Origin: Prochilodus magdalenae
Taxonomy: Eukaryota; Chordata; Actinopteri; Characiformes; Prochilodontidae
Length of the DNA stretch: 64,000 nucleotides
Direction: 5' to 3'
NCBI GenBank assembly: GCA_024036415.1
Contig: JAMWET010001895.1
Coordinates: 42,501 to 106,500 of the forward strand
The notes under the pieces: model-generated
The model's database searches: none
What the model was told of the DNA's origin: nothing
Seen by the model: only the letters and a program-made list of their open reading frames with translations
Translations under genes and position numbers: made by a program
Part shown: positions 1,977-61,600 of the stretch, piece by piece
How the letters are laid out: every line of letters starts with the position of its first letter
Position numbering within the stretch: position 1 is the first letter of the stretch

Positions 1977-2580
1977 TCAGTAGGAGCTCTGGTTCTGGGA
2001 CCTGTAGCCTCCTCGCTGGTAGCCCTGCTTCTGCTGGTAGCCGCCTTTCTGATCTGAGGTGGAGAAACAACAAAGTTTAATCAGCTGGAGGAGAAGATAC
2101 GGGGCGTGGAGGAGCTACAAACACAAGGACACAATGCTGGCAAATGATGCCAAGAGTCTCAGTACAGCAGAATGGAGGCGGAGGAGGAGGAGGAGGAGGA
2201 GGAGGGAAGAAACAGAAAGTGGTTGGAACAATAATGATCAGGAACCTCATTAATAAAAACCTGTCACTATAGATCTGTTGAGCATTGGGCTACATGTTGA
2301 CGTTTATAGCTCACAGTGTGATCACTAAACCACATCAGCAGGTCTGTACCACCCTAATGAGTGCATCCTATTCATGCTATTTGGGTGACTATTGAGTTCT
2401 TGTGTTTGTTAGCAACTTCAGCCTTGCTGCTTCAATTCCTAACTGTACTGGTGAAGACATGGTCAGGCTGGGACAGCCCCATGCCTATAGGAAAATCATC
2501 ACTGTACTAGGAACAGTGTTTTTTAAATGAGGCTCCAAATCACGAGAGACACACACACAGACAGAGACAGAGAGAGAGAC

Positions 2581-2615
<35 letters not shown>

Positions 2616-5600
2616 CAGACAGACAGAGAGACAGACAGACAGAGAGACAGACAGAGAGACAGACAGAGAGACAGACAGAGAGACAGACACAGAGAGAGAG
2701 AGACAGACACAGAGAGAGAGAGACAGACACAGAGAGAGAGAGACAGACACAGAGAGAGAGAGACAGACACAGAGAGAGAGAGACAGACACAGAGAGAGAG
2801 AGACAGACACAGAGAGAGAGAGACAGACAGAGAGAGAGAGACAGACAGAGAGAGAGAGACAGACAGATAGAAAGAAAGATAGATATATGAATTTATTCTT
2901 AAGCACCTCGTTGGTAACCTTGCCTCTGTTGGTAACCGCCCCTCTGGTCTGAATCTGCACAATGAGGATAGTTTAGAGGCATGCAGCTGAGGATGTGTAC
3001 AGAGGTATGGACTAGGCTACACTTACTGACACTGTCAGTAACACATACGGTACAGAATCAAGTCAAAGGACATCACTTTGGCATCAAGGTCAAACAGACA
3101 TGGTGTTCATGCAGCCCAGTGAAAACGACCAGCTAGCTTCTGAAACACTTTGTACTAAAAAGACAGTCAGAAGTGTTCACAGCGGTGGTAACCAGACGTC
3201 CCCCTCTAAACGCCTCCTCATAGAAAATTACATCAGATGGTAAGCCTGGCATGCTGGCAAAACTCACTTTGGTGGCATATATGTTCCGGTGCATCCTATT
3301 CATGCTATAAGAGGTGGACAGTGGCGTAATTAGTTTGCATGGAAATGTCCATTTCAAGCCTGGACTAATAGAACCTGTTCTCCTGCAGTGTTCTGTGCTG
3401 ATGATGTGAATAGGCGTCAGGGTCAGACTAATGAATGAGCTTCTATTAAAGACTGGTGGACTGAGAGACACTAGAGTCTCTTCACCTACACTGAGCTGAT
3501 GGAGAGTCCTGTTCCAGAAATGATAATAGGACATTAGAGCCGTAATAAACCATACTCCTGTTACTCTCCATACTTCAGTACATCTGAAGGTACATACTTT
3601 AGTACTGGTACTCACCATACTTAAGTACATCTGAAGGTACATACTTTAGTACTGGTACTCTCCATACTTCAGTACATCTGAAGGTACATACTTTAGTACT
3701 GGTACTCACCATACTTCAGTACATCTGAAGGTACATACTTTAGTACTGGTACTCACCATACTTAGGTACATCTGAAGTACACACTTTAGTACTGTTACTC
3801 TCCATACTTAAGTACATCTGAAGGTACATACTTTAGTACTGTTACTCTCCATACTTAAGTACATCTGAAGGTACATACTTTAGTACTGGTACTCACCATA
3901 CTTAAGTACGTCTGAAGGTACATACTTTAGTACTGTTACTCCAGAAGAGGACTAAAGGGAGAAACTGACACTGACCCTGGAGGAGGAGTTTACCTTGGGG
4001 ATCTCTACTTATCTCGGGTACATGGTTTAGGCACCTCCTCCACCACTGTATTTGGGTGACTACTGAGTTCATGTGTTTGTTAGCCACTTCAGCCTTGCTG
4101 CTTTGTTTTCTAACTGAAGCAGCAGAAATCTAGACCCCAAATATATTTGTAAAGGGTTTTCCAATGTGCTACAACTGGGGTAAATGGAATACAGCACTAA
4201 ACTGATTCGTAGAGCTATTCCTTTAACGAGTGAACACAACTGTAGCTGTTCTGGTGAAGACAGGACTGTCAGGACCACAGCAGCCGGGACTGCTCTGTCT
4301 TTATGAAATCGTTACTGTACTAGGAACATATGATCATATGCCGTGTTTTAGGAGGAGGAAGGCCACTACCGTTTACCCCAAAAGGTTAGAAGAAGGAAAG
4401 AAACTGACGTCAAGTGGCCATCTAATGGACAGACTAACGTAGAGAGAGACAGAGAGAAAGAAAGATAGATATATGAATTTATTCTTAAGCACCTCGTTGG
4501 TAACCTTGCCTCTGTTGGTAACCGCCCCTCTGGTCTGAATCTGCACAATGAGGATAGTTTAGAGGCATGCAGCTGAGGATGTGTACAGAGGTATGGACTA
4601 GGCTACACTTACTGACACTGTCAGTAACACATACGGTACAGAATCAAGTCAAAGGACATCACTTTGGCATCAAGGTCAAACAGACATGGGGTTCTTCATG
4701 CAGCCCAGTGAAAATGACCAGCTAGCTTCTGAAACACTTTGTACTAAAGACAGTCAGAAGCGGTGGTAAAGGTAACCAAACGTCCCCCATAGAAAGTTAC
4801 TACATCAGATGGTAAGCCTGGCATGCTGGTAAAACTTGCTTTGGTGGCATGTGTGTTTCGGTGCATGCTATTTATGCTATATTCGGACCGTGGGGGACAG
4901 TGACTCAGTAAATATAGTTAGCTACTATACTAAAGTAGTTTTATTGTGTATCTATGATTCATATTTCCATTTTGGACAAGTCAAATTTAAATCCACTTCA
5001 GTTCAAACTGGTATCTAACTGCTTTACTATATTTCATAGTGGTTGGTGTAGCTCAGCCGATAACACCACTTCCCGCCAGGGTGCCACCTCTACATGTGGG
5101 AGACTGGGGTTCGAATCCCGGGGTGGGTGACTATACTGTACTAAACCATTAACAGCCTTTGGGCAAGACTCCCAACACTAAATTGGCCCACCTGTAATAT
5201 TGATTAACCTCATAAGCCGCTCTGGATAAGAGCGTCAGCTAAACGCCATAAATGTAAATTATATTACGGCAAATTATTCCTTTTAGCTCATGTGGCGTAA
5301 AAATACGCAACGAGTCAAAAAACAAAACGAGCTTATTTATGGATTCTTAGCATTCATTGAAATGTCCATTTCAGGCCTGGACTACATCCAGGAGCACCTG
5401 GTGGAAGGCAGGTAAAGCAAGACAGGGTTAGTAAACAGATTGTTCCTGACTTTGTGGTCATATAGACACAATATAGAAACATGTACACATGTACTCATGA
5501 CTGGTGAGTGTCTTTCCTGAATGCATATAAACTCTGTCCTCTATGGTACATGTGTTTGGCTGGTTTAGGTTTATGAACAGAGACCTACAGATGCAGTAGA

Positions 5601-8244
5601 GTAAACTAATCTGTGATCCTGTTTAAATTAAGTTCTTATTAAACTTCCTACATTTATTAAACTTGCAAACAAGTTAATAAATCTTAAAGTGAAACTTTTA
5701 TAGTTCTAGCTAATGGAACCGGTTCCCCTTCAGTGCTGATGATGTGAATAAACGTCAGTGTCAGACTACTCTCCACACTTAAGTACATCTGAAGGTACAT
5801 TAGTACTGGTACTCCAGTGGAGGACTAAAGGGAGAACTATTCCTTTAATAAGTGTATTTGGGTGACTATCGAGTTATTGTGTTTGTTAGCAGGTGGATGT
5901 GAAGGTGGAGGAAAGAATATATAAATGAATTTATTCTTAAGCACCTCGTTGGTAACCTTGCCTCTGTTGGTAACCGCCCCTCTGGTCTGAATCTGCACAA
6001 TGAGGATAGTTTAGAGGCATGCAGCTGAGGATGTGTACAGAGGTATGGACTATGCTACACTTACTGACACTGTCAGTAACACATACGGTACAGAATCAAG
6101 TCAAAGGACATCACTTTGGCATCAAGGTCAAACAGACATGGGGTTCTTCATGCAGTCCAGTGAAAACGACCAGCTAGCTTCTGAAACACTTTGTACTAAA
6201 GACAGTCAGAAGCGGTGGTAAAGGTAACCAAACGTCCCCCATAGAAAGTTACTACATCAGATGGTAAGCCTGGCATGCTGGTAAAACCTGCTTTGGTGGC
6301 ATGTGTGTTTCGGTGCATGCTATTTATGCTATATTCGGACCGTGGTGGACAGTAACTCAGTAAATATAGTTAGTTACACAATAAAACTACTTTAGTACAG
6401 TATCTGTGATTCATATTTCCATTTTGGACGAGTCAAATTTAAATCCACTTCAGTTCAAACTGGTATCTAACCGCTTTACTATATTTCATAGTGGTTGGTG
6501 TAGCTCAGCCGATAACACCACTTCCCGCCAGGGTGCCACCTCTACATGTGGGAGACTGGGGTTCGAATCCCGGGGTGGGTGACTATACTGTACTAAACCA
6601 TTAACAGTCTTTGGGCAAGACTCCCAACACCACATTGGCCTCCCTGTAATATGATTAACCTCGTAAGCCGCTCTGGATAAGAGCGTCAGCTAAACGCCAT
6701 AAATGTAAATTATATTACGGCAAATTATTCCTTTTGGCTCATGTGGCGTAAAAATACGCAACGAGTCAAAAAACAAAACGAGCTTATTTATGGATTCTTA
6801 GCATCCACGGAAGTGTCCATTTCAGGCCTGGACTACATCCAGGAGCACCTGAAGGAAGGCAGGTAAAGCAGGACGGTGTTAGTAAACAGATTGTTCCTGA
6901 CTTTGTGCTCATATAGACACAATATAGAAACATGTACACATGTACTTGTGACTGGCGAGTGTCTTTTCCTGAATGCATGTAAACTCTGTGTCCTCTATGG
7001 TACATGTGCTTAGCAAGTTTATGTTTATGAACAGAGACCTACAGATGCAGTAGAGTAAACTAATCTATGATCCTGTTAAATTAAGTTCTTATTAAACTTC
7101 CTATATTTATTAACTTGCAACCAAGTTCATAAATCTTAAACTTTTATAGTTCTAGCTAAATGAACCGGTTCTCCTTCAGTGTTCTGTGCTGATGATGTGA
7201 ATAGACGTCAGTGTCAGACTAATGAATGAGCTTCTATTAAAGACTGGTGGACTGAGAGACACTAGAGTCTCTTCACCTACACTGAGCTGATGAGTCCTGT
7301 TCCAGAAATGATAATAGGACATTAGAGCCGTAATAAACCATGCTCCTGTTACTCTCCATACTTCAGTACATCTGAAGGTACATACTTTAGTACCGGTACT
7401 CTCCATACTTAAGTACATCTGAAGGTACTTTAGTACTGGTACTCCAGTGGAGGACTCAAGGGAGAACTATTCCTTTAATAAGTGTATTTGGGTGACTTTC
7501 GTGTTATTGTGTTTGTTAGCAGGTGGATGTGAAGGTGGAGGAAAGAATATATAAATGAATTTATTCTTAAGCACCTCGTTGGTAACCTTGCCTCTGTTGG
7601 TAACCGCCCCTCTGGTCTGAATCTGCACAATGAGGATAGTTTAGAGGCATGCAGCTGAGGATGTGTACAGAGGTATGGACTATGCTACACTTACTGACAC
7701 TGTCAGTAACACATACGGTACAGAATCAAGTCAAAGGACATCACTTTGGCATCAAGGTCAAACAGACATGGTGTTCTTCATGCAGCCCAGTGAAAATGAC
7801 CAGCTAGCTTCTGAAACACTTTGTACTAAAGACAGTCAGAAGTGTTCACAGCGGTGGTGAAGGTAACCAGATGTCTCCCTCTAAAAGCTCCCTCATAGAA
7901 AGATACTACATCAGAGGGTTATGAATACACTACCTGATGTCTGAAATGCTGTTTATGACAGCTTTGAGTTTTAATTCCACTCAGGGTGGAATGATAAATG
8001 CGACAGGTCACTGTGAGACCCCTGGTTACCATCACCAACACTGTGAAGACCATCTAAACATGCAATCTGTTTACATTGTAATAACTAAATTACACAAGAA
8101 TAGCACTGGCTGGACAGGGAAAAAAAAAAAATAAAAAAAAATAAAAAAATAAAAAAAAACCCACACACACACACACACCCCACACCACAAAATGATCCCC
8201 TATCAAATAAAAAAATAATCAATAAAAAAAAAAATCTATACAAC

Positions 8245-8277
<33 letters not shown>

Positions 8278-11200
8278 CTAACAGTAAGCAGTTAAGAATT
8301 TTCAGCCTTTCAATAATCATTGTTTAAGTATCATCGTTTAAGTATAACTTTCTGAAGACACTTACCTCTCTGGTAGCCTTGCTTCTGCTGGTAGCCACCT
8401 TTCTGATCTGTTGAGTGAGAGACTGGGTTGAGTGCACAGCCTAAAAATGGCTCGAGATAAACTGACTGTTGGAGCCATTTATTGTGTGTTTAGATTTTAA
8501 TACATATTGTAAATGTTGTATTAATAATTTAGCAGGATTTTAGTTATATTTCTAATATATGAATATTTGTATCACTGCATTTAAGTGATAAGAACTTGTA
8601 GAAAATGTTTTTTTTTTGTTTGGGATGCAATCTGATTGGCTCCTGAGCTTGGTATAAAAAGCGTGGGCACGCATAAAAGGGCAAAAGCCTTGAGCCGAAG
8701 AGCATCACAGTCTTTTGACTGTCACGTTATTTAATTTTGAGTCAAGAATTCATCTTTTGTTTTGTATTATCTGAAGTTCATAGTAAAAATACAAACTACA
8801 GAAAAAGTCTGGACTTTTTATTTATTTACACGTGTCGCGTGTAAAAGAACTTCGAGGCTAGTGAGTTGCACTCACACTGACATTAATGGCAAATAAAATA
8901 AATCACTAGTGTAGTCTACACAGGCAGCATCCAGCTGTCTTTGGTTGAATACGAGGAAAGTCTTAGGAAACCTGGACCTGCTGGTGCTGAAACTGTAAGA
9001 AGCTGCTCACCTCTGTTGAAGTAGCCTCCGTAGACGCCCTGCTTGAGGTCGAAGACGCGCTCGTTGTTCTCCACCAGGCCCCCAAGCTTCTCTGCCAGCT
9101 GCAGTGCCATGTTCTGCAGGGAGGTGGGCTCCGTCCTGTGCATCACTACCGTCTGAGTGGGCTGGTCCAGAGACGCCTGGGAGAAAGACGAGAGCTCTAG
9201 ACCTTTTCTGTAACCCAGATCTCACCAGAACAGAAGCCAGGAATTCGGTTTACCATGAGCTCCTCGTTGATGATCATTTTGCTGATGATGCTGTGCACTG
9301 TGGGCAACTCCAGCTGAAACATCTCTGCCAAAGTCTCCATACTGAGGAGAACACAGAAGGAGCAGTCACAGACGGGGTTAAACACAGGCTGTTAGCGGTG
9401 CGTTAACTCTACCACTGAGCAGAGACACATGGAGCGTTACCTGATGGAGTCGTATACACTGCTGTAGGTGAACAGGTAAGTGCGCAAAGACTCCTCCTGA
9501 ATCTTCCTGCAAGCACACAGCATAATGCACATCAATCAAACAAAATAAAGAAATGTTAATCTTTTATAAATGCTCGTAGTTTTAATATTTGAAAAGCTTT
9601 TAGAGTAGTGGAGCCTTACATCCATGTTGTAGGTGCCTTAAAATCTCATTACATAAATCCACATTCCAGTTAAAAGCACTAATTAAAAAGACAGCAGCTT
9701 TTGTTTGGTGAGGAATGCTATGCTATGCTATCTGGGCTGGTCACTGGATAGAGTAATTACTCTATAGAACGTAGTCTCTCACTGAAGGACTATATACTCC
9801 CCCCACCATAGCCCATCTGTAGCAGCAGGCAGCCTCAGGTGCTCCAGAGGGTCCTCCTTCTAGTAGTGCTTTTCTATAGCGGCTAAAAACATCTGAGGGT
9901 TGTCTGGATACTTCTAGACAAGCTGTGTACATACTAGGACAGATCAATGGAGTCAATATTTCCCGACACCCATAATTTTGGCCAAAAAAAATAAAAAAAT
10001 AATAATAATAAATTTGAATAAATTAATACATAAATAAATAAATGACAAAAAACTAAATTAACAAATAAAAATAAAAAATTAAATATTTCAGTGTTCTGCT
10101 GAATAATTTATGCCATTTATTTTAAATGAGCTTATTTCTTCACTGTGCGTCACGCCAGAGAACGCTCAAGTCTCACAGCTCTTATTCAGTATTCAAGCCA
10201 AACAGCGCTCCAGACAGAGTAAAGACCAGAACAGAGTCACTAGCTTTAGCACACATGACAGTGACAGACAGCAGCTTCTCATCGCACATACACGTGTGCA
10301 CACTTGCATCCTACCCAAAGAAACACAAACACCAGTTTCACAGCAATGCCATAAATTCACAGCCAGTGTGGAGTGAGGCGCGCTCTATAAACACAGCCAA
10401 TGTGTAGCACGGGATGTATTTAATTCATTGTGCTTTGCTGGTATGTTTAAGGTTAAAAGTGTTGTGTTTTTCTCTGAAAACCGAAACACAAATTTAGCCC
10501 ATTTGGTTTAATGGTGTAAAGTGGCAAAATTCATGAAACACTGCAAAACACCATGTGGTATTCACGTTGTTTGGTTTCAACAAAAAAAAAAAAAAAATCT
10601 GTTATAAAATAACACCTCAAAAACATAGCTAAAGCAAGTCCTTAAATGTTAAACACTGTCAAGTTAACTGAAAAGTTAACAAAATTTGGAATTTTAATGG
10701 GAACAACCTCAGCTGGGATACATTCATTTAGCATACCTGACGAGCATTTCACGCACACGCTGGGCCTCAGGGAACAGGTCCCACACTTTACTGTTCATCT
10801 TCTCGTTGATGATGAAGGAATGGCAGGTGCGCCAGTCTCCCATCTTCATGGCCTTGCTGGCAGCCACCACGTGCTCCCTCATGCTCTCAGGGGGGCCTGT
10901 AGGAGCACAGAGAGGAGATCAGGAGTCAGTTACATGGTCATTAGGCTCCACAGGCTGTGAACTGTTTCCTAATACATCTCACAAGGTCACGCTCAATCCC
11001 ATATGCTTCAATCAATTTACATTTCAACAGAAGTGAATATTTTACTTTAGCCACACACAATCCAAATTAATTAATAATCAAAAGTCAAATTTGTTTGATT
11101 ACCATAACCAAGGCTAATAATGTAATGACATAACATACATCAAATCGTCTGTGTTAGCCGACCACATGTTGCAGAAAGAGCAGAGATTAGGTTGAAAGGT

Positions 11201-17200: not shown

Positions 17201-20200
17201 ATAATTATCTGAACCCCTGAATATCTAGAACTCACAGCTGCTCCCTTGAGGAACTTGCTGGCTTCGGGAGCCGGCTCTGCTGCAGGCTTTTTCTTCATAA
17301 AGCTTTTAGCAGTAACTCCATCGTCGTCACTCTCTGAAGATGAACCTGGAAATCACATACCGAGACAAGCAGACTCTTCATGAACCCAAGTTACCTCTAG
17401 GGTCTGCCTGTAACACTGTCCACCAAAGGGGATATAAATAAAGGGACCCCGGGGGTGTTTGACTAATTGACTGGAACATGCAGCCACTGCTACCCTCACA
17501 GGATGAAAATGGTTGTGACATATTTAGACACTGAATTAAAATAATAAACACTTTTATTAACAATGAGCTTTACAGTGTGTTGAGGGTCAAACTCAAAACA
17601 AGCAGACAATTGTAATTATTCCAACTTCAAAGAAATACAATTAATACCATTAAATGTTATTTATTATTATTATTATTATTATACACACCAGACTCAGCTT
17701 CCTCCCTCTCCTCCTCCTCTTCTGCAGACTGTTCCGGGTTCTGAAAGGAGCCACAAGGTAAGTGACGGCATAGAGACAGCATCGCAGGAATCCAGGCTTC
17801 GTTAAAGTGCCCAGCTTACTGACCTCTTTGTAGTTGGCGATGTCCGTCTCGAAGTCGCGGTTGTATTTGCGGATCTTCTGGCGCAGGGTGCTCAGAGCTT
17901 TGGCGTTGTTTTTGTTCATCTTCTTCTTCCCCTCTTTGTCCTCCCATAGCTGCACAGACAAGTCATATAGAAACTGAGCTGTGGTCCAAACGCTACTTCA
18001 ATCTAGGTACGCTAACAAAATGCAGGTGAGAACCACCACGCTGTGCTTTCCAGAAACACTGTACGTACCTGGTTCAGGTAATCTTCCAGGTCGGCTAGGA
18101 GGCGGATGTAAAACGGCGGCACTCCCTCTTTGTCCACTATAGCTTTACTCTTTAAGAACGCTCGACATAACTGCTCAAACTCCTCCAGACATTTGGCCAT
18201 GTCTCTGATCTTCATGGCATTCCGGATGGTCTTGATCAGGTTCGTCAGCTCCTCAAACCTGAAGCAAAGAAACAAGGTAAGCTGAAGTACAGGGTCAAAC
18301 TAAAGGTCATGAAACTTCCATAAGGATGCTTGTAAGTTCTGAATCGATTTTTCCAAAAACAAAAAATAACAAAATAAAATTTCCCAGTAATTTTTAAAAG
18401 TGTGCAGCTGCTCAGACAAGAAGCAGGTTTGGATGGACGGGGGAACGAAGGAACAGTGTTGGGGATGGACGAGGGAACAGTGTTGGGGATGGACGAGGGA
18501 ACAGTGTTGGGGATGGACGAGGGAACAGTGTTGGGGATGGACGAGGGAACAGTGTTGGGGATGGATGGGGGAACAAAGGAACAGTGTTGGGGATGGATGG
18601 GGGAACAAAGGAACAGTGTTGGGGATGGATGGGGGAACAAAGGAACAGTGTTGGGGATGGATGAAGGAACGAAGGAACAGTGTTGGGGATGGACGAGGGA
18701 ACAGTGTTGGGGATGGACGAGGGAACAGTGTTGGGGATGGACGAGGGAACAGTGTTGGGGATGGACGAGGGAACAGTGTTGGGGATGGACGAGGGAACAG
18801 TGTTGGGGATGGATGAAGCAACGAAGGAACAGTGTTGGGGATGGATGAAGCAACGAAGGAACAGTGTTGGGGATGGATGAAGCAACGAAGGAACAGTGTT
18901 GGGGATGGATGAAGCAACGAAGGATCAGTGTTGGGGATGGATGAAGCAACGAAGGAACAGTGTTGGGGACGGACGAGGGAACGAAGGAACAGTGTTGGGG
19001 ATGGATGAGGGAACGAAGGAACAGTGTTGGGGATGGACGAGGGAACGAAGGAACAGTGTTGGGGACGGACGAGGGAACGAAGGAACAGTGTTGGGGACGG
19101 ACGAGGGAACGAAGGAACAGTGTTGGGGACGGACGAGGGGATGAAGGAACAGTGTTGGGGACGGACGAGGGGATGAAGGAACAGTGTTGGGGATGGATGA
19201 AGGAACGAAGGAACAGTGTTGGGGATGGATGAAGGAACGAAGGAACAGTGTTGGGGATGGATGAAGGAATGAAGGATCAGTGTTGGGGATGGATAAAGGA
19301 ATGAAGGATCAGTGTTGGGGATGGATAAAGGAATGAAGGATCAGTGTTGATGTTGAATAAATGAATGTTGGTAATGGACAGAGGAATGAAGGGGTGACAG
19401 GCAGCTACAGACAGGTGGTCTAGCTTGCTAGTTGTGCTGGTTGGCTTTAGCTCTCCAAGTTTCTCTGACTAAAACTGCTGTGTGGGCGGGGCCAGATATG
19501 TCAATCACGTTACCCAAGATCAGGACCACAGAGTTTACATGGAGGAGAGAAATATGGTGGAACCCAGGCAGTCAGTTATTGGTCAGTGAAACATCCTACT
19601 GAGAGCACACGTTTACCGTTTGGTCTTATTTTGGTTTTTATTACTTGGTGGGTTATATAAAAGCCAGTGTTACCCAGCCCACTCCACAAACCCCCAAAAC
19701 TACACCGACACTCAATAGGATAACAGCCATTTGGAGAGAGGGTGTGTGTATACGGGTCTAGTCCTGCTCTCGAGTTACCTTTAATATGAAGTACATTTTA
19801 AATTTGACTTTTTAAGCACCAAAATACTTCACAACAAACTGTAAATGAATACATACAAAACTTAACCAATTAGCAGATTACACCATTTCATATTATTAAA
19901 CAGCAGGTCAGAGTTTGATGGAAACTGCCATTTTCATGAGCTGTTCTATTGTTTAAAAGAGCTGCGGTGAGAAACGATCAGAGCGCTGAAACCTCCTCAC
20001 CTCTTGTCCTTGGCACTGCGTACCACTCTTTTAGTGTCTTCCTCATCGTCACTCAGCAGCAGGTTCCTGAAAGGAACAAAGAGCAATCAATGGACGTCTA
20101 AACACACATACCCGATTCACATCCTCCACCCCTCAAACGCTGCCACTCACTGCTTGTTGAAAGCAGTCCCGGTTGCTTTAGGGGTGATCTCCTCGGCGGA

Positions 20201-20251
20201 CGAGGACTCCTCCGACTCACTGTCGGATCCGGTGGCGAAGAAACGGGACAT
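1977..20251 (-). CDS. eif3c: Eukaryotic translation initiation factor 3 subunit C (complete, 21 coding exons)
   Basis: Core subunit of eIF3, which binds the 40S ribosome and helps recruit mRNA in the cytoplasm. Coding exons, 5' to 3': 20151-20251, 20001-20066, 18069-18258, 17824-17949, 17689-17740, 17236-17345, 16992-17122, 16510-16773, 14983-15124, 14755-14880, 14056-14149, 13241-13428, 12726-12950, 11735-11926, 11236-11407, 10737-10896, 9441-9506, 9254-9341, 9011-9176, 8366-8407, 1977-2053. All junctions are GT-AG and phases agree. The sum is 2778 nt, 925 aa plus stop, against about 913 aa in human as recalled. The start [15 protein letters not shown] matches the family. Next come [19 protein letters not shown], acidic/Lys-rich linkers, [37 protein letters not shown] and a PCI-type C-terminal region ([14 protein letters not shown]). 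The tail is Gly/Tyr/Gln/Arg rich and ends QNQSSY. Extra in-frame exon copies before the last exon (separate entries) could lengthen it by 16 aa each. Confidence 0.97.
2550..2880. repeat. GACA/GA compound microsatellite
   Basis: Runs of 'gacagacagagagagagaga' type sequence in the last eif3c intron, between the last duplicated exon and the terminal exon. Long Ser/Leu/Val or Arg/Glu/Thr frames here are by-products of the repeat. Confidence 0.95.
2907..2954 (-). CDS. eif3c: eif3c tail exon copy 4 (48 nt, phase 1-1)
   Basis: Fourth identical copy, nearest to the terminal eif3c exon at 1977-2053. It is followed in transcription direction by a long GACA/GA simple repeat (2550-2880). Splice sites and the downstream TAA plus AATAAA are as in the other copies. 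Confidence 0.5.
3560..3940. repeat. 47-bp minisatellite (about 8 copies)
   Basis: Tandem units resembling 'aagtacatctgaaggtacat' followed by 'actttagtactggtact', about 47 bp each. The equivalent places in the other duplication units hold only one or two copies (near 5770-5815 and 7355-7440), so copy number varies within one locus. Confidence 0.9.
4493..4540 (-). CDS. eif3c: eif3c tail exon copy 3 (48 nt, phase 1-1)
   Basis: Third identical copy, 1452 bp from the previous one. Acceptor, reading frame, donor, stop and AATAAA are all kept. The flank past the exon changes into a GACA/GAAAG-type simple repeat, unlike copies 1 and 2, so this unit joins the array at a different breakpoint. Confidence 0.5.
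5040..5262 (+). mobile_element. tRNA-derived SINE (in eif3c duplication unit 2)
   Basis: The 5' part resembles a tRNA with an A-box-like 'ggtgtagctcag' and a perfect B box 'ggttcgaatcc' at 5108-5118. A tRNA-unrelated body follows, then the tail 'gctctggataagagcgtcag' and 'taaatgtaaa'. That tail type is common in teleost SINEs and resembles L2-clade LINE 3' ends (from memory). It is not a functional tRNA, because no acceptor-stem pairing closes after the B box. Confidence 0.8.
5945..5992 (-). CDS. eif3c: eif3c tail exon copy 2 (48 nt, phase 1-1)
   Basis: Identical in sequence to the copy at 7575-7622, including acceptor, weak GTGCTT donor, downstream TAA and AATAAA. It sits 1630 bp further along in the next tandem duplication unit. 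It can add 16 aa ([16 protein letters not shown]) in frame, or end the protein early. Confidence 0.55.
6490..6713 (+). mobile_element. tRNA-derived SINE (in eif3c duplication unit 3)
   Basis: Near-identical to the SINE at 5040-5262 and at the same offset within its duplication unit. It was therefore carried along by the duplication and did not insert independently. Confidence 0.8.
7575..7622 (-). CDS. eif3c: eif3c tail exon copy 1 (48 nt, phase 1-1)
   Basis: This 48-nt block is flanked by an acceptor (TTGTGCAG) and a GT donor (GAG/GTGCTT). It codes [16 protein letters not shown] plus a split Gly. Both ends are phase 1, so inclusion between the 8366-8407 exon and the final exon adds exactly 16 aa. 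It is a clear relative of both neighbouring exons, which code [15 protein letters not shown]. The donor is much weaker than that of 8366-8407 (GTAAGT). If splicing stops here, the frame continues Gly-Ala-stop (TAA at 7567-7569) with AATAAA at 7560-7565 directly after, so it could be an alternative terminal exon. Exon use is inferred; no transcript data were available. Confidence 0.55.
8100..8280. repeat. A-rich, CA and (AAT)n low-complexity block
   Basis: Poly(A)-like runs, a short (CA)n and a (AAT)n tract lie between the duplicated eif3c units and the 42-nt exon. No gene signal is seen here. Confidence 0.9.
8366..8407 (-). CDS. eif3c: eif3c penultimate constitutive exon (42 nt)
   Basis: Acceptor CTCACTCAACAG and strong donor GTAAGT flank a 14-aa, phase 1-1 exon coding [14 protein letters not shown]. 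The terminal exon begins with the same peptide, so this exon and the terminal one are already an older duplication. The 48-nt copies are later additions to the series. Confidence 0.9.
8465..8885 (+). mobile_element. Possible solo LTR
   Basis: A compact promoter-like stretch contains 'ggtataaaaagcg' at about 8651, a pyrimidine/CAGTC start-like region near 8710, and a 3' part with 'ttatttacacgtgtcgcgtg'. The layout resembles a U3-R-U5 unit, but TG/CA ends and a target duplication could not be fixed, and no internal retroelement genes are present. It could be unrelated unique sequence. Confidence 0.3.
9507..10736. other. eif3c intron, no gene seen
   Basis: AT-rich intron with A/T runs (around 9985-10090) and short frames of no recognisable family. 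No RNA gene or clear mobile element was identified. Confidence 0.7.
11927..12725. other. eif3c intron, no gene seen
   Basis: Contains loosely repeated phrases such as 'aaaatccag' and 'ggtttagtcc', probably an old dispersed repeat. No supported gene. Confidence 0.6.
15125..16509. other. eif3c intron, no gene seen
   Basis: Largest coding-region intron without an obvious satellite or transposon. Nothing with a family signature was found on either strand. Confidence 0.6.
18435..19365. repeat. Minisatellite, 24- to 33-bp units, in an eif3c intron
   Basis: Alternating units built on 'ggaacagtgttggggatgga' followed by a short variable part (cgag, or tgaagcaacgaa, or cgagggaacgaa). Unit length steps between about 24, 32 and 33 bp in blocks, showing higher-order structure. 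It lies in the intron between the exons 20001-20066 and 18069-18258. Long open frames on both strands come from the repeat. Confidence 0.95.
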
Positions 20252-20774
20252 CCCAGACGGTCACTGTGCTGCGGGTTACGAGAGAAGGCATTACTCATAC
20301 TACAGTGGGTCCCAGTAGAACATGTACACTGAACTACAGATCGGCTCCCCAAATACAGATTTTAATCAGACAGTGGAATCAGACTGGTCCAACACCATCA
20401 CGGCGCTCTTGCTGCATCAACTAAGTTCAGGGCAGCCAATCAGAACAGGGTCATTTACATATTCATTAATTATAAGGGTTAAATAGGAAGTTTGGCATTA
20501 CATTAGCAACTTCGCACAGAGAACAAGCAAAAACACTAACCTGAATGGAGAACTACAGCTTTTACACCGTGCAGAAAAAAAGATCAAAGTTTTTACACCA
20601 CTAAATATATATTAGAGGTGGAGATATGGAGGAGTACCATACTCTGTACATCAGGAGTATACAATATTCAGCCATGTCCTGCAGTAACGTTCCAGGCTGT
20701 TAAGTGTAAGCCTGTACAGTCTTTAAGACTGTGACAAACATCTATCTAGCTGGATGTGTCTAAAACGTTTACTG

Positions 20775-25723: not shown

Positions 25724-27940
25724 TCACAGGAAGTAATCAGCCACTGGTTTTTTAGAGGGAATGCCTCGAGTTTCCTGTGGAGCAGCTTCGAATATGATAA
25801 ACTCCTTCTGCAGGTGCTCGTCCAGCTCCAGGATGGCCGCCACGTTACCACACCTGAGAGAAAAACACACACGTCAGTTATTAACAAGGTGCGGTGAGGC
25901 CATTCGTGTAGTTTTTTTTTTTTTTTTTTTTTAAATAACATTTAGAGGAATTTGTCTTCCACGTTTAACCCATCTATGAAGTGAAACACCCACATATACA
26001 CACCCACTCAAACACAAACACTAGGGGGGCAGTGAGCACTCTTGCACAGAGTGGTGGGGAAGCTCTAGCTGGGGGTTAGGTACCTTGCTCAAAGGCACCT
26101 CAGTCGTATCAGTTCAGGGAATTAAACCGGTGTGACCCTCTGGTCCACAAGGCTGGTTCCCCAACCTCCAGCCTGCCATGACTGCCCCCCAGTGATCTCT
26201 GTTATAATATGCTTGTACATGCTCTATGGGAGAATGTGTCTTTACAACCTTCCTGGGAAGGAGTATGGTATACGTTGGTAACACGGACTGGGAAAGTCAT
26301 TCTGGTTTCCCCCACAGTTCACAGTGTCTACTGGGCAAGAGAGAGACTGTGATAAACTTAACTAAGGGTGAATTCAGGATTGGTTGTCAAGGATCATTTT
26401 GTGAAATACCTGACCTGAAAAAATGGGTGGAATATCCGGTTCACTAGGATATAGGACCAATGTGGAAAATTGACGGCGTGCTGACATATGATTAGCTGGA
26501 GGGTACTTTTCACACCTGCATTGCCTTAATGCTGTCACTACAATGCTGTGTAATTTTGTCTCTGTGGTCTGGCCTGTTTTACTGTCTAATCGAAGTCTGG
26601 AAATACAATCAATTAATCCATCCATCCATTTAACACACACAGGCTTTTACCACAGATACACTCCATTAACACCACGTTTCTTAAAAAGGGTCACGCCAGC
26701 CAAATGAAAATCCTAACCACTGATGTGAACTTTCTTTGCAGAGTTGAAGATTCCAGGTGCTGGAAACCAAAAACTGGGAGGAGCTTTTAACTGATAGAAA
26801 TACCAGTTTGAAATGTGTGTCAAATCTAAACGTCTGACTTTCATTCTTCAGGCAGTTATACACGGCTCTGATCATGGATCTCAAGTTCGCACGGTGCATG
26901 TACACATACCTGTAGCAGTAGTTGGGTGCGGACCACACAGTGAGCACAGTTTCATTGAAGTGCCACTTGTAGCCCTCCATGACGAGCTGGTGGGCTCGGC
27001 AGATCATGTCAATGTCATTAGCGGCGTTAAACTGGGCCACAACGTCGCTGCCAAATAGATACCCTGCTCCTCTCGGGCTCACTCCCCAGCCTGTAGTGTC
27101 TGATCACAAACAGAACAGAGGGCGTTCATTCAGGTGAAGCAGAAATCAAGTCAAAAGCCTTAAAGGCTTCATCAGGTTCACCTTCAACCAGGCCACAGGA
27201 CAGACTGCAGCGAGGAGAACATGTCTGCGTTCAAGTTACCTTCAGGGTCAGACCACAACAGGTCACACATTGGTCCATCGTGTGGCACTTCCTGTTTCCT
27301 GTCGATGGTCCTGATCTGGTCCAGAGTCTGGATGGAAGGTGAGAGGCCGCCGTGCACACAGAAAATCTTTGGAAGAACAGAAGGCTAATTAATATCAGGG
27401 CTGAATGATCATCAGGCACTATTCAGATCACAGGGTCCATGAACAGTACACATGTAGGTGAATGAACCGAAGGACGCTATATCTGAACAAACCCAGACTC
27501 AAATAATCAATCATCAAGTTAGTAATAAGTGGTCTATTACGGTGACTGACCTTGCCGTCGATGATGGCTGAGAGGGACAGGTAGTCGAAGATTTCCGTGC
27601 AGTACCTCCAAACTGTGACCGAGCCGTACTTCCTCAAGCACTCGTCGTAGAAGCCGTACACCTGCGTGATCTGCCTGGACTCATGGTTCCCTCGGATCAG
27701 TGTGATTCTGTCGGGATAGCGCACCTGGGGCGGAGAACGTCAAGCGTTAAAGGGGTTCTTCAATTAAAAAAAAAAAACAAAAAAAAAAAACACTTTTCTA
27801 AATATACAGGTTCTAGTTGGGACCAATTAGCATTCAAACTGCTAACCAAATGTCAGCAGCTTGCCTTACCCATCAGACAAGCCGTCTGAAGGGCCTAAGG
27901 AGAATTACTGAGCGATAAACATGTGTCTGTGTTATATTGT

Positions 27941-30900: not shown

Positions 30901-33483
30901 GACCAAAAGAAATGACCCACAGTTACTTGGCTCCACTGACCTACATTAAATGTAGAGCATGTTTTCATCTGCTCATGGGAAGTTAGCATTTTGGAGATAC
31001 GAGGTTGTGTCCTTACAGCAGGGACATAGACATATAGATGACTTGACAGCCTTTAAAGTAAACATGACGCTGAAGTCATTTGCAGTACTCTGGCCAACAC
31101 GTCAAGCACGTGACCTCTACCATGTATCCTAATTTAGTTCCTGGGCCACATCAGCTGTGGTTGAAGCACATGCAGCCACGTTACCACAGCCCAGCTAAGG
31201 GGTAGGAGGCAGTGGTTGACAGTCCCCAAACTTTTTTTTTTTTGTGAGATTGACCCACCATTCGGGACTCGAGCTGAACGGTTCTCTCCTACTTACTGTA
31301 ACTGGCGAATCCACTCTCTGTACATTGCTCTCCTCCACAAGAATCTCCCTACAACAAACAAGAGACAAAATTAATATCAGGACACTGCGTACTGGAACTT
31401 ACATCACACCAATATTTACAGTCGGCTCAAATAAATTCACTGAGCTTCACAGCCTGTGGACTCCAGTGTTTCTTCTGGCATTAACAGCGATGTTGTCCTG
31501 ACAGTCTGTACCCTTCTGGGGAGGCTTTACACAAGAACAGGATGTTGGAACAGGATTTAATTACATTCAGCCCAAGTGCATTACTGAGGTCAGGTACTGA
31601 TGCTGGATGTCCTGTAATGGCCCCCACAGTCACTGCACTGCTCCACCGCCCAATGCTGGGGAGCTTCATAGCCCTCTACCCCAGGCTCAGCACTGGGCAT
31701 GTTGACCTTAGGCTCAGCTGCTCCCGAGCGTCCCAGTTTCAGATTGTTTGAACAGTTCAAAATACATTAAACGCTGAACATACAGCAGGTTACCTGTTCG
31801 TTTTCTGTCTGGTTAATGTTTACACGGCTGAGTAAAGCTCTTTTCAGTCATATTAGGAGAAACAGAGCAGAACTGCTCTTCCAGCACCGAGTCAGCCGAG
31901 GCTCTTAGGCACAGGGCTCATTAACATTATTAGCGCAAACCTAAACATTATGATACCACATACCACAGCCAGGTTTGAATCCAGCTGTCAAGTTTTATTC
32001 TAGCAAACGACTGAAACGGCACCAACAAACGATCCAAATCAGGCCGGATTTCCATCAGCTCCGTTCCAGAGAATGAAAACCCAGTCACACTCGTAAAAAA
32101 CACCAGAAATATGGAACAAGTTTTATAGAGAGGTCTTTAACGTTCAGCAGCTACGTGTCATGTTTTTGCTGAGGTTATTAAATGGGCAAATTCATTTCCA
32201 TATTAACTTACTGCACTTCTCTTTCTTTGGCTAAACACTCCTCCAAATCAAGCAAGCACACAGACTTCTTTAGGAAATTCCATCATTCATTTTTGTTCCT
32301 CTTCAAGACGCAGCTGCAAAAACTCCTGCACACCTCATACGATATATTATGGTAGCCTATTTCCACCACTTACAGGAAAATATGCAAAATAATAAGTCAT
32401 AATTATAAGACATAATGAGATAGCAAGTCATAATTGAGATGCTAAGTCTCTTATGGGAAGTCAAACTTAAGTCAATTAGAAAAATCAAAATTGAGATAGC
32501 AACTCACAATTATGAGATTCATAGTGTTTCATAGTCGTTCGCTACTGCTAGTGACTGAACATATTAGGGATGCCGTCTCTCCTGAGAATATGGACCAAAT
32601 CGAACAGTTTTATTTTGGATAATGAGCAGGCACTTATATTGCTACCCGTGCTGAACGTTCCTGTCGATTAGAAGTCTTATTCAAAAAGGTTCCAGCCTGT
32701 TATGATATTTATGGGGCACCGTTTCCTTTCATAAAAATGCAGTACCAGTATCTACCAGTATTCATTAGCATTTACTGAAAACACACATCAGTAAGAGACA
32801 GATGTTTTGATATGACATGTAGTCCAAAGCAATATTCTATGGCTTATTAATTGTGGTTGGTGTAGCTCAGGGAATAACACCACTACCCTCCAGGGAACCA
32901 CCACCACCACCACATGTGGGAGACTAGGGTTCGATTCCCGGTCTAGGTGACTGCGCTGTGCTACACCAATAAGAGTCATTGGGCAAGACTCTTAACACCA
33001 CATTGACCTACCTGTAAGTCGCTCTGGATAAGAGCGTCAGCTAAATGCCATAAATGTAATTATATTCCAGAAGACCACAACATTTAAGCCCAGTTACTGA
33101 ACTAAATCACTCGCATTCTCTTCATTTCACTGCATCTGTAACCCCACAAACCCCAAACCCTTTCAGTAATGCTAATCCAGGTGGGCCAAGTCCCAAATTC
33201 ACATTTTACAGATGTTTGGTGTCAGAATTGGCAGCCAAGGCCATGAAAAATGTTTGGCTTGGAAGTCCAATAGCTATGCATCCCTGAGACGTACTGCTGT
33301 GTGGGCTGCCTGACTATGAAAAACAGATGCAGCAAACAGAGATTAGGATTAAAAGCCCCTGCAGAACTCTTTCGCTGGTTATTACCTGGCTTTGGCACAC
33401 AAGGCTTTGACCTCATTCTCCTTGATGAGCTCACATCTCCTCAGCTGGTCAATCTGTCTGTCCAGATCACTGATGTCACCCAT
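25724..33483 (-). CDS. ppp4c: Serine/threonine protein phosphatase 4 catalytic subunit (complete)
   Basis: Metal-dependent PPP-family phosphatase acting with regulatory PP4 subunits in DNA repair, centrosome and signalling work. Coding exons: 33386-33483, 31297-31348, 28527-28577, 28149-28250, 27551-27724, 27240-27366, 26910-27099, 25724-25853. The sum is 924 nt, 307 aa, matching the known family length. Start [20 protein letters not shown]. Catalytic signatures: GDIHGQ (53-58), GDFVDRG (from residue 81), RGNHE (112-116), CVHGG (His about 164), SAPNYCYR. The C-terminus ends VADYFL, with the terminal Leu that is carboxymethylated in this family. All splice sites are GT-AG and phases agree. Exon 2, only 52 nt ([17 protein letters not shown]), was found from its family sequence. 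No defects were seen. Confidence 0.98.
26025..26195. repeat. Dispersed teleost-type repeat
   Basis: The stretch with 'gttaggtaccttgctcaaag' and 'gcacctcagtcgtatcagtt' and a closing 'catgactgcccccc' resembles a non-coding interspersed repeat I recall as frequent in fish genomes. It lies in the last ppp4c intron. Confidence 0.5.
27948..28016. repeat. (TA)n/(GATA) microsatellite
   Basis: Long alternating TA run with GATA-like interruptions in a ppp4c intron. Confidence 0.97.
28920..29910. other. ppp4c intron, no gene seen
   Basis: AT-rich intronic sequence between coding exons 3 and 2. No coding, RNA or clear transposon signal. Confidence 0.6.
29920..30510 (+). repeat. Dispersed repeat with LINE/SINE-like 3' end
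   Basis: The end 'tgtaaagctgctttaagatc' and 'agccctatacaaataaatg' is a 3' tail type found on many teleost non-LTR elements (from memory). Upstream is a 127-codon open frame (29911-30294) with no known domain, probably chance within the repeat. Confidence 0.5.
30745..31000. mobile_element. MITE-like repeat, family of 62543-62791
   Basis: Shares 'atttcatgatcaacagacca', 'tggctccactgacctacatt' and an end near 'ttttggagatac' with sequences at 62543-62791 and 63105-63240. Terminal repeats are degraded here. Confidence 0.45.
32855..33062 (+). mobile_element. tRNA-derived SINE, same family
   Basis: 'ggttggtgtagctcag' head, B-box-like 'ggttcgattcc' and tail 'gctctggataagagcgtcag'. It lies in the ppp4c intron between coding exons 1 and 2 and is more diverged from the two eif3c copies than they are from each other. 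Confidence 0.8.
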
Positions 33484-38526: not shown

Positions 38527-52202
<13,676 letters not shown>

Positions 52203-58600: not shown

Positions 58601-61600
58601 TGACGTGTTAGCTGCAGTTGAAAGCTCTTAGGGGAATACTGTGTAAACGTTTCACCAGACCATTCCATGAAGACGGGTTCTCTCGCTGGTGGTATCTGAG
58701 GAACCCTGAAAATGCAGGACAGTTTTGCTTTTGTTTACAGACTGGCTGTCCACTTACGCCCTTGCTGTCAAACTGTCCCCGTCGGTGAGCTGTTTAACTG
58801 GGAACGTCTATCCTTTTATAGAGTACTCACTGCGCAGATGCACGCTTCTCCGGCCGTGTGGGTGCTGCTCGTTCCCCTGGGAGCCTGTAGACCTCACCAA
58901 AGCACACACGCTCAGCAGCTCTCTCTCCCCACTGCTGGTGACTTGCTCTTTCTCTCTGGAGATCAGCTGGGACAGAGTGGAACCCCCGGCAGCCCAAACC
59001 ACCTTAGGGCGTGGGACCCCTCCGGAGAGGCGCATGGAGAACACTCCAACTCCATCCTTCCTCCAGGTCACTGATGGGGAGAGAGGGACGGAGGGAGCCA
59101 CTGGACAAAAGAGAGCAGATATTGAGGATCCTGTTAGACAGCACTCGCTGCCCAGTCAGGGAGGCAGAGCTGTGCACAGTGGTGGTGAAGGTAACCAGAC
59201 GTCCCCCTCTAAAAGCTCCCTCACAGAAAGTTCCTACATGAGATGGTTATGAATACGCTGCCTGATGTCTGAGACGCTGTTTATGATGGTTTCAGCCTTA
59301 CACTTCATTCATGGTGGAGGGATACATGCTGCAGGGTGCTGTGCGGCATAAAATAGTTCCCAAAAATAAATTTCCAGTACAAAAATTGTACAGATATGAG
59401 ATATTAAATGTTTTATCTGATCAGTTCCATTTCTTTTATGAATATACATTCATTGTGAAGGTTGGGACAGGAGCAATTTATAACTTGGATCATTGTGAAA
59501 TGTCCACAGAGTCCACAAATGTCCACTTAAAGGTGATGCAGCTATGTTTGGAGCATCCAGGGAAGAGTCTATTGTGACAGGGGACGAGTCTAGGCTGACC
59601 ACCAAAACAGATCAGCAAAAATCTAACTGGTTAAATGGCAATGTTCCTCTGTGCATGAAGGAAAAGGCTGAAAACCACTGTGACCTTCAACTCCTTAAAA
59701 CTCCTTAAGTGCATATACACTCATCATTAACAGCTTCACCCAAAGGAGGTGTGGGAGTGCAGGTGTGTTGGAAAGAAGGATAAAGGTGACCAGGATCAAT
59801 AACTGGTGATAAATTTAGACTGATATGATCAATATTTATTGAGCTACACATACAGAAGTCTGTCTCTCAGTATGGCGTCGGGCCGCCGTGTTCGCTAACC
59901 CAACACGCCAGACGTCTCGGTATGGGGCTGTAGAGGTTCCTAATGGAGTCCTGTGATAATCCATCCCATGCAGCTTGAACATCCTCACACAGTTCCTGCA
60001 GATGGTGCGGTAGGGGTGGAGGTGGAGGGACACCAGGCCTTCTGGACGTGTGACGACCAACCGTTCATCTTGGCGCTGACCACGGTGCCTCCACACACAG
60101 ATTCGTTGGGCGTCTCCACCAAGACTAAAGCGGGACTCGTCACTGAAGATGACCCGCTGCCATTCTGAGTCACTCCATGACAGTCTGGTACGACACCGCT
60201 GCGGTCTTTGGAGATGGTGACGTGGTGTTAAGGACAGTCGTGGTAACGGTCTGTGTACATGTAGTCCTGTGTGGTGCAGCCGTCTGCCAATGGTGCTACA
60301 CTAACAGGAGGACTCATGGAGGACACCACTGCTCGCTGGAGGTCTGTAGTGGTGGCTGCTGGGTCAGTCAGGTACATGTACATGTGCAGCCGACCCACCA
60401 GGTTTCATTCCTGTGGGTTGATTCCTTCTGGGTTTATCTGGCTCTTTCGGAATTAGAGTTTTATTCTCATATGTGTAAACAAGCATTCCATTGCACAGAA
60501 AGCTTACCCAAGCAAGTTCTCCTCCAGACTCGCTCAATGGGCTCCTGAAGAGAGCAGTGCTCCACCCTGCACACGATCTCTCCGCCCTCCTCCACCTCCT
60601 TCAGGAGAGCCGTGGCCCGGAACGTCCTCGGCTGGGTCTGGATCGGCCCCCAAACCTCCGACACCCCTTTAACCTCATGAGTATCATCCACCTCCTCAAC
60701 ATCCCTCTCCTCGCCCTTACTGGTGCCTCTCTTTAGCCATTTGACGGAGATGTCAGGAGGGTAGAAGCCTGTGATGTCACAGCCCAGGGTCAGGGGTCCC
60801 TCCGGGGGGGATGACGGGGTGCAGCTGATTTCGGACACAGTGGGCTTCTTTATGAACCCTGTGTGAAGGCAAGAAAAAGACATGTCCTCTCATTCAGTTT
60901 CATTCTGTATCTGAACCCATCCTGTTTGTCTTCACCCATAAGCATAGCGTTTGACCTGAAGGGGAAGTCCACCAGCTTTTCTAAATCCCTGCATCATAAA
61001 CTGTCTGCCGTGTAAACAGAGTCATTCAGGGGGTCCGGTGTGGAACAGTCGCTCGTGTGATAGGAATGTGCCACCCATGGCCATCGTTTTGATGTAGTTT
61101 AAGACGGTTTGGGCCTAAAACTGATTTTTTGAAGTACACGTTATGTATGTAGGGATACATGCAGGGTGTTATGAGGCAAAATAGTCCCCCCAAATTTTCC
61201 ATTTTGATGAATCATGATTAGTGACTTAAATATGTGGGTTCTGACACTGTATAACACATGGTTATCTATCAACATGGACTGAATTCATAACCGCTATAGC
61301 TATTCATAGTAGTGATGAATGGAACCAGTGGTTATGAATGGTTATGAATACGCTGCCTGATGTCTGAGATGCTGTTTACGACAGTGTTAAGAAGATCTTG
61401 GACTTAAAATCCATTTAGTGGAAGGATACATGCTGCAGGGCGTTGTTCGGCAAAATAGTCCCCAAAGAAAAGCTACTTATTTCTGGTTCTCCCGACTTTC
61501 CCATCATCAACATTCCATATAACACCCGATAGACGCGTGTAAGTGAGCTGTGGGAATTCTGAGGGGAAAAGTTGGTCGACCTTCCCTTTAATATCACTGA

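Follow-up and report, generated by a model that had tools for sequence, protein, structure and literature searches.

Included neural microexons of eIF4G1 and eIF4G3 enhance phase separation and granule association (Gonatopoulos-Pournatzis 2020), and the Tyr-rich alternative exons of the hnRNP A/D proteins add disordered Tyr-rich sequence (Gueroussov 2017; both as given in the accessible part of PMC10551640). Here we describe a comparable arrangement in eif3c, found in a 64,000-nucleotide (nt) stretch of DNA from the fish Prochilodus magdalenae (assembly GCA_024036415.1, contig JAMWET010001895.1, positions 42,501 to 106,500 of the forward strand), hereafter the window. Both the eIF4G microexons and the eif3c exons would be optional short exons in a low-complexity region of a core initiation factor. 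However, as far as that account goes, the former are shorter, single and neural, belong to unrelated genes and were tested in mice, whereas eif3c has several copies, known here from sequence. With the hnRNP A/D exons, as outlined there, they would share being optional and adding disordered Tyr-rich sequence, but those exons belong to mammalian splicing regulators and not to a fish translation factor with multiplied identical exons.

In many other otophysan fishes, a 48-type cassette lies at the same place in eIF3c, between the 42-type repeat and the terminal exon. It also has 16 residues and, in 13 species, is present in some listed proteins and absent from others, but the listed proteins carry one copy except in Astyanax (up to three), and these relatives are known from proteins. 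Mutually exclusive tandem exons, in the accessible parts of PMC9013439 and PMC9741552, likewise arise from an exon duplicated with its intron. Such exclusive use was rejected on the annotated Astyanax isoforms X1 and X8, which join three and two copies. Our best reading, to which we give about an even chance, is that an old otophysan alternative exon of eif3c was amplified together with its splicing control, and doses Tyr/Arg/Gln repeats in a disordered tail.

The 48-nt exons of eif3c

The gene model was assembled from six-frame pieces (Table 1), and every internal exon is preceded by AG and followed by GT. By sequence match along the protein, the gene is that of eIF3 subunit C. Its first 873 residues are 97% identical to Colossoma eIF3c, and the last 94 amino acids (aa) of the short form match eIF3c chains in the PDB (best E 3.8e-32), which we take to be mammalian. 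Those chains hold one repeat, RDQKDGYRKNEGYMR, where up to six are possible in the P. magdalenae gene. No Pfam match was obtained for the 158-aa tail piece. The predicted product is 925 aa long with no 48-nt exon and 989 aa long with all four, that is 925 + 16n aa. A previous interpretation of the window (the sequence-only reading) had proposed an amplified, frame-neutral exon cassette at this place. The exon model and the duplication of exon together with intron support it, and the splice model reproduced its coordinates, exon sizes, phases and isoform lengths. Likewise, the four 48-nt exons, c1 to c4, are identical in all six pairs, as had been claimed. The shared opening motif D-Q-(K/R)-G-G-Y is also present, but the 48-nt exons place two residues (DS) ahead of it.

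The deposited P. magdalenae protein P0032 (NFI96_018361, partial) equals our model from residue 35 on, minus the cassettes. It begins in another frame (HSDRLGC...) of the window's own DNA (20101-20361, minus strand), without the N-terminus encoded at 20251.

Table 1. Coding exons and intron cores at the eif3c locus, in window coordinates
Feature	Position	Strand	Basis
eif3c coding region, 25 coding exons, 925/989 aa	1977..20251	minus	splice model
Exon 19, last folded-domain exon, ends ...YGGYFNR, phase 1	9011..9176	minus	splice model, single match in own genome
42-nt exon, strong donor GAG/gtaagt (8 of 9 matches), phase 1-1	8366..8407	minus	splice model
Conserved upstream intron core of c1; TGCATG at 7779-7784, 7648-7653	7623..7847	minus	alignment, motif scan
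48-nt cassette exon, copy 1 (c1), phase 1-1	7575..7622	minus	splice model, pairwise alignment
Conserved upstream intron core of c2; TGCATG at 6149-6154, 6018-6023	5993..6217	minus	alignment, motif scan
48-nt cassette exon, copy 2 (c2), phase 1-1	5945..5992	minus	splice model, pairwise alignment
Conserved upstream intron core of c3; TGCATG at 4697-4702, 4566-4571	4541..4765	minus	alignment, motif scan
48-nt cassette exon, copy 3 (c3), phase 1-1	4493..4540	minus	splice model, pairwise alignment
Conserved upstream intron core of c4; TGCATG at 3108-3113, 2980-2985	2955..3179	minus	alignment, motif scan
48-nt cassette exon, copy 4 (c4), phase 1-1	2907..2954	minus	splice model, pairwise alignment
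Terminal coding exon with stop	1977..2053	minus	splice model

Over 14 codons, the 48-nt and 42-nt exons differ by seven synonymous and three nonsynonymous base changes, the latter amounting to two K to R replacements; the synonymous sites compared number just 7.0 to 8.3. Since synonymous change is near saturation, the two exon types split long ago with their peptide kept. This pattern is the strongest sign inside the window, and by it the 48-nt exon looks as if it is, or long was, coding. The exon also has the make-up of a cassette exon, with symmetric phase 1-1, AG and GT at its borders and a frame that is kept whether it is skipped or included. Many authors set a lower length limit for microexons, one that 48 nt exceeds. 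The limit of at most 51 nt, given in the accessible part of PMC12064062, includes it.

When the donor is not used, the 48-nt exon reads on to QRGA and a stop in 4/4 copies, and an AATAAA lies 10 nt past the exon (chance about 0.012). It might thus act as an alternative last exon, polyadenylated at this signal and giving a short tail minus the last 25 residues. Annotated read-through tails are found in carp (P0071, P0076) and in trout, whitefish and pike (P0033, P0038, P0043), which is consistent with such use, but these are predictions. Moreover, the AATAAA counts only once because the copies are duplicates, and the named characiform isoforms splice on to the terminal exon. We give this explanation very little chance. 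The annotated tails of carp, trout, whitefish and pike continue through a repeat exon's donor and stop prematurely (GGYEH..., GAY...), resembling the QRGA-stop that Prochilodus would yield on read-through.

The cassette in other fishes

Protein searches were evaluated on the best 120 of 1015, 120 of 234 and 120 of 128 matches. From the first two, 131 eIF3c proteins were fetched, and the cassette was counted by a pattern written after the tails had been seen. It occurs at the same place in 38 of the 131. Nine of these come from four species that we take to be characiforms (Astyanax mexicanus, Colossoma macropomum, Pygocentrus nattereri and Hoplias malabaricus), and 27 from 17 named species presumed to be cypriniforms; the remaining two carry no species name. 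The DQRGGY repeat of P0113 and P0114 (Sinocyclocheilus) is not covered by the pattern, and none of the five proteins added by the third search carries the cassette, as judged by eye. Only two repeats are found in the listed proteins of catfish (11 species), Electrophorus and Chanos. Compared with Prochilodus, carp cassettes have other residues at the first two positions and, for the most part, K in place of R. Because a matching cassette is common to many otophysan fish, the finding is broader than the sequence-only reading had assumed. On these comparisons the cassette is not unique to Prochilodus, which stands out by its copy number. The array is more than chance, since exon and intron were duplicated together and other fishes show the peptide again.

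In 13 species the listed proteins, mostly predicted models, comprise forms that carry the cassette and forms that lack it: Carassius carassius, C. auratus, Onychostoma macrolepis, Cyprinus carpio, Sinocyclocheilus anshuiensis, S. rhinocerous, Myxocyprinus asiaticus, Culter alburnus, Megalobrama amblycephala, Ctenopharyngodon idella, Misgurnus anguillicaudatus, Paramisgurnus dabryanus and Pygocentrus nattereri. In 11 of them, S. rhinocerous and Pygocentrus being the exceptions, both forms lie on equally long contigs and thus probably derive from one gene. P0018 (943 aa) and P0026 (918 aa) come from contigs too short for an intron-bearing gene (longest 3455 and 2988 bases, respectively), and are therefore likely transcripts with the cassette. 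The suggestion that the cassette is alternatively spliced stands for the annotated proteins of relatives, but the deposited P. magdalenae model is mild evidence against its frequent use in that species.

Colossoma, Pygocentrus and Hoplias have one copy in their listed proteins, compared with the four exons in Prochilodus DNA. In Astyanax, isoforms X9, X8 and X1 carry one, two and three 48-type copies, respectively, and in X1 one copy stands before the 42-type repeat. No 48-type copy was seen ahead of the 42-nt exon in the 8408-9010 intron of Prochilodus. This difference in copy order hints at separate amplification in the two fishes. In Colossoma X1 the cassette is followed by GTSYR, as if spliced from another donor 15 nt downstream, and in carp P0126 and P0131 the 48-type repeat occurs but the 42-type is absent. 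Among the fetched proteins, other extra repeats or Gly-rich extensions occur in gar, paddlefish, tarpon, two eels, shad, anchovy, salmonids, pike, mudminnow, stickleback and wolf eel. The long Gly-rich tail extensions of P0088, P0110, P0112, P0115 and P0116 (wolf eel, stickleback, salmonids) appear to lengthen the tail by a different route.

Duplicated units and their conserved core

The four units are spaced by 1586, 1452 and 1630 nt, and aligned stretches between them are 89.6-94.6% identical. Divergence is lowest in a core of about 287 nt, from -225 to +61 relative to the exon start, which comprises upstream intron, exon and a short downstream piece. In the four pairs tested, the core differs by 0.7-1.4% (2-4 changes in 282-287) and the flanks by 5-16%. 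Core and remaining changes are 3/287 and 55/1013 for c3-c2 (Fisher P 6e-4), 3/287 and 11/212 for c2-c1 (P 0.011), 4/282 and 25/156 for c4-c3 (P 9e-9), and 2/285 and 9/81 for c4-c1 (P 3e-5), all four P values being optimistic because the core limits were set after viewing the alignment. The remaining two of the six core pairs were viewed in binned alignment only. This pattern could reflect selection on the exon and its splicing control, gene conversion, or short-read polishing, and one genome cannot separate these.

Gene conversion would be central if the array were mere passenger amplification, in which a single cassette is or was functional while instability of the repeat-rich introns produced the additional copies, which would be skipped for the most part and held similar by conversion. 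Conversion too yields a near-identical core, the units contain a 47-bp minisatellite and sequence resembling a short interspersed element (SINE), and all four copies are skipped in the deposited model. Against this, three copies are combined in a single annotated protein, Astyanax isoform X1, and the exon is unchanged in all four Prochilodus copies while the flanks of c4 differ by 11-16%. We regard this account as possible but doubtful.

Polishing matters if copy number or copy identity is an assembly effect. The accessible part of PMC9893009 describes a hybrid assembly with modest PacBio coverage (17.6x), polished by Racon and by NextPolish with Illumina reads, and reports unresolved repeats. 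However, the mean long read of 9230 bp given there exceeds the array, and several copies occur in Astyanax proteins too. Moreover, the units differ in length, and their flanks by 5-16% plus indels, so that the array is not one unit repeated by error. In a check from the assembly itself, no ambiguous base (N) occurs in the window and exon 19 has one match in the genome; the identity of the cores could partly come from Illumina polishing. We consider an error of this kind very unlikely.

Each 48-nt copy is preceded by two TGCATG motifs within 225 nt, and the 225 nt that follow it contain no such motif; none was found in the flanking 225 nt of the 42-nt or terminal exon. These pairs make up 8 of the 14 TGCATG in the eif3c introns (15,305 nt). 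Two motifs in one core have a shuffle P of 0.014, and a Poisson P of 0.004 from the rate in the window. RBFOX proteins bind (U)GCAUG, and binding upstream of an exon tends toward skipping, according to the accessible part of PMC10551640. The motifs near the cassettes are thus candidate sites of an RBFOX-regulated exon. We infer RBFOX-type control of the cassettes, by which skipping would be predicted where RBFOX is high.

The minisatellite forms about 8 copies within one unit (3558-3941), and a long GACA/GAGA repeat lies beyond the last cassette copy (2559-2883). The introns of two units (about 5033-5290 and 6485-6740) carry repeat sequence that recurs at 32847-33066, beside a UnaL2 3′ element of a long interspersed element (LINE) at 33001-33054. 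A dispersed repeat as the source of the exon was rejected: in blastn of one unit against the window, hits outside the array are intron-derived pieces only (32847-33066). At Rfam gathering scores the LINE tail at 33001 is the single match in the window, and ARAGORN gave no match there.

Elsewhere in the window, on the minus strand, are a 1701-aa stop-to-stop frame (43742-48847), acidic, internally repetitive and without a Pfam match, and a frame with an immunoglobulin C1-set domain (60467-60889, E 7e-10). Frames at 160-836 and 59836-60300 (minus) resemble pieces of a Tc1-type transposase, with a below-cutoff Pfam match in the one tested (E 0.0027). A frame at 26681-27103 (minus) resembles the catalytic exon of a protein phosphatase (Metallophos, E 0.00085, narrowly missing the cutoff).

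A proposed length-adjustable tail of eIF3c

Several observations weigh against an amplified exon in regular use, beside the choice of core limits and the alternative origins of the core given above. The deposited model P0032 omits all four 48-nt exons and, according to the accessible part of PMC9893009, its annotation was built with homology and pooled RNA-seq, so that the omission is mild evidence against frequent inclusion. The 48-nt exon donor, GAG/gtgctt, has 5 of 9 matches to CAG/GTAAGT and the 42-nt donor 8, a weakness that is relative since six other eif3c donors share this lowest value. Its acceptor, with 10 pyrimidines in 16, is tied with five others, and exon 7 has 7. The four TGCATG pairs, being duplicates, count as a single observation. 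Most proteins of the relatives are predictions, and 11 catfish species among the matches are listed without the cassette, which is therefore dispensable. Finally, an AlphaFold2 model of Astyanax X1 (22 sequences) has a mean predicted local distance difference test score (pLDDT) of 43 and a tail that is all coil at 26-28, but as the whole model is poor it supports disorder weakly.

The exons, their phases, the constraint on the peptide, the slow-changing core and the annotated isoforms in relatives are established directly. The most economical account remains an otophysan exon amplified with its control region. The alternative cassette exon of eif3c probably predates the split of Characiformes and Cypriniformes. 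In Prochilodus it would then have been amplified in tandem to four copies, each copied with the upstream intron that likely bears the splicing control. With weak donors and frame-neutral copies, zero to four could be included in P. magdalenae mRNA.

Each inclusion would lengthen the C-terminal tail of eIF3c by 16 residues, adding 2 Tyr, 3 Arg, 5 Gln, 3 Gly and 2 Asp. Counted from YGGYFNR on, the predicted tail grows from 46 to 110 residues between zero and four cassettes, with 8 and 16 Tyr and 4 and 16 Arg, respectively. By analogy with the eIF4G microexons and the Tyr-rich hnRNP exons, this would likely change the valency of a disordered eIF3 arm. The tail might thus be a length-adjustable multivalent arm, altering the contact of eIF3 with RNA or with other low-complexity proteins, and the cassettes may affect RNA contact or condensation. 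In the accessible part of PMC13044287, the c subunit of eIF3 is reported to matter for binding pyrimidine-rich 5′ untranslated regions (UTRs). Among the open-licence papers listed as matches on eIF3c with splicing, isoforms, exons, zebrafish, the C-terminal tail, microexons or exon duplication, none addresses this tail by title or start of abstract, and the word 'isoform' is absent from the accessible part of a 2026 review of eIF3.

A bolder proposal, which we put forward tentatively and think unlikely, is that otophysan eIF3c carries a length rheostat set by splicing. Exon copy number would evolve, inclusion level would dose identical repeats, and translation would be controlled in a graded, tissue-specific way by repeat number and not by a two-form switch.

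The deposited P. magdalenae gene model lacks a conserved exon family. The core factors of translation initiation are commonly regarded as invariant machinery. If the eIF3c tail is dosed by identical exons, these fishes would offer a natural graded series of 0 to 4 repeats on an otherwise unchanged protein, in which one may ask whether the valency of a disordered tail alters eIF3 function. It would also be a case of exon copy number evolving within an essential gene.

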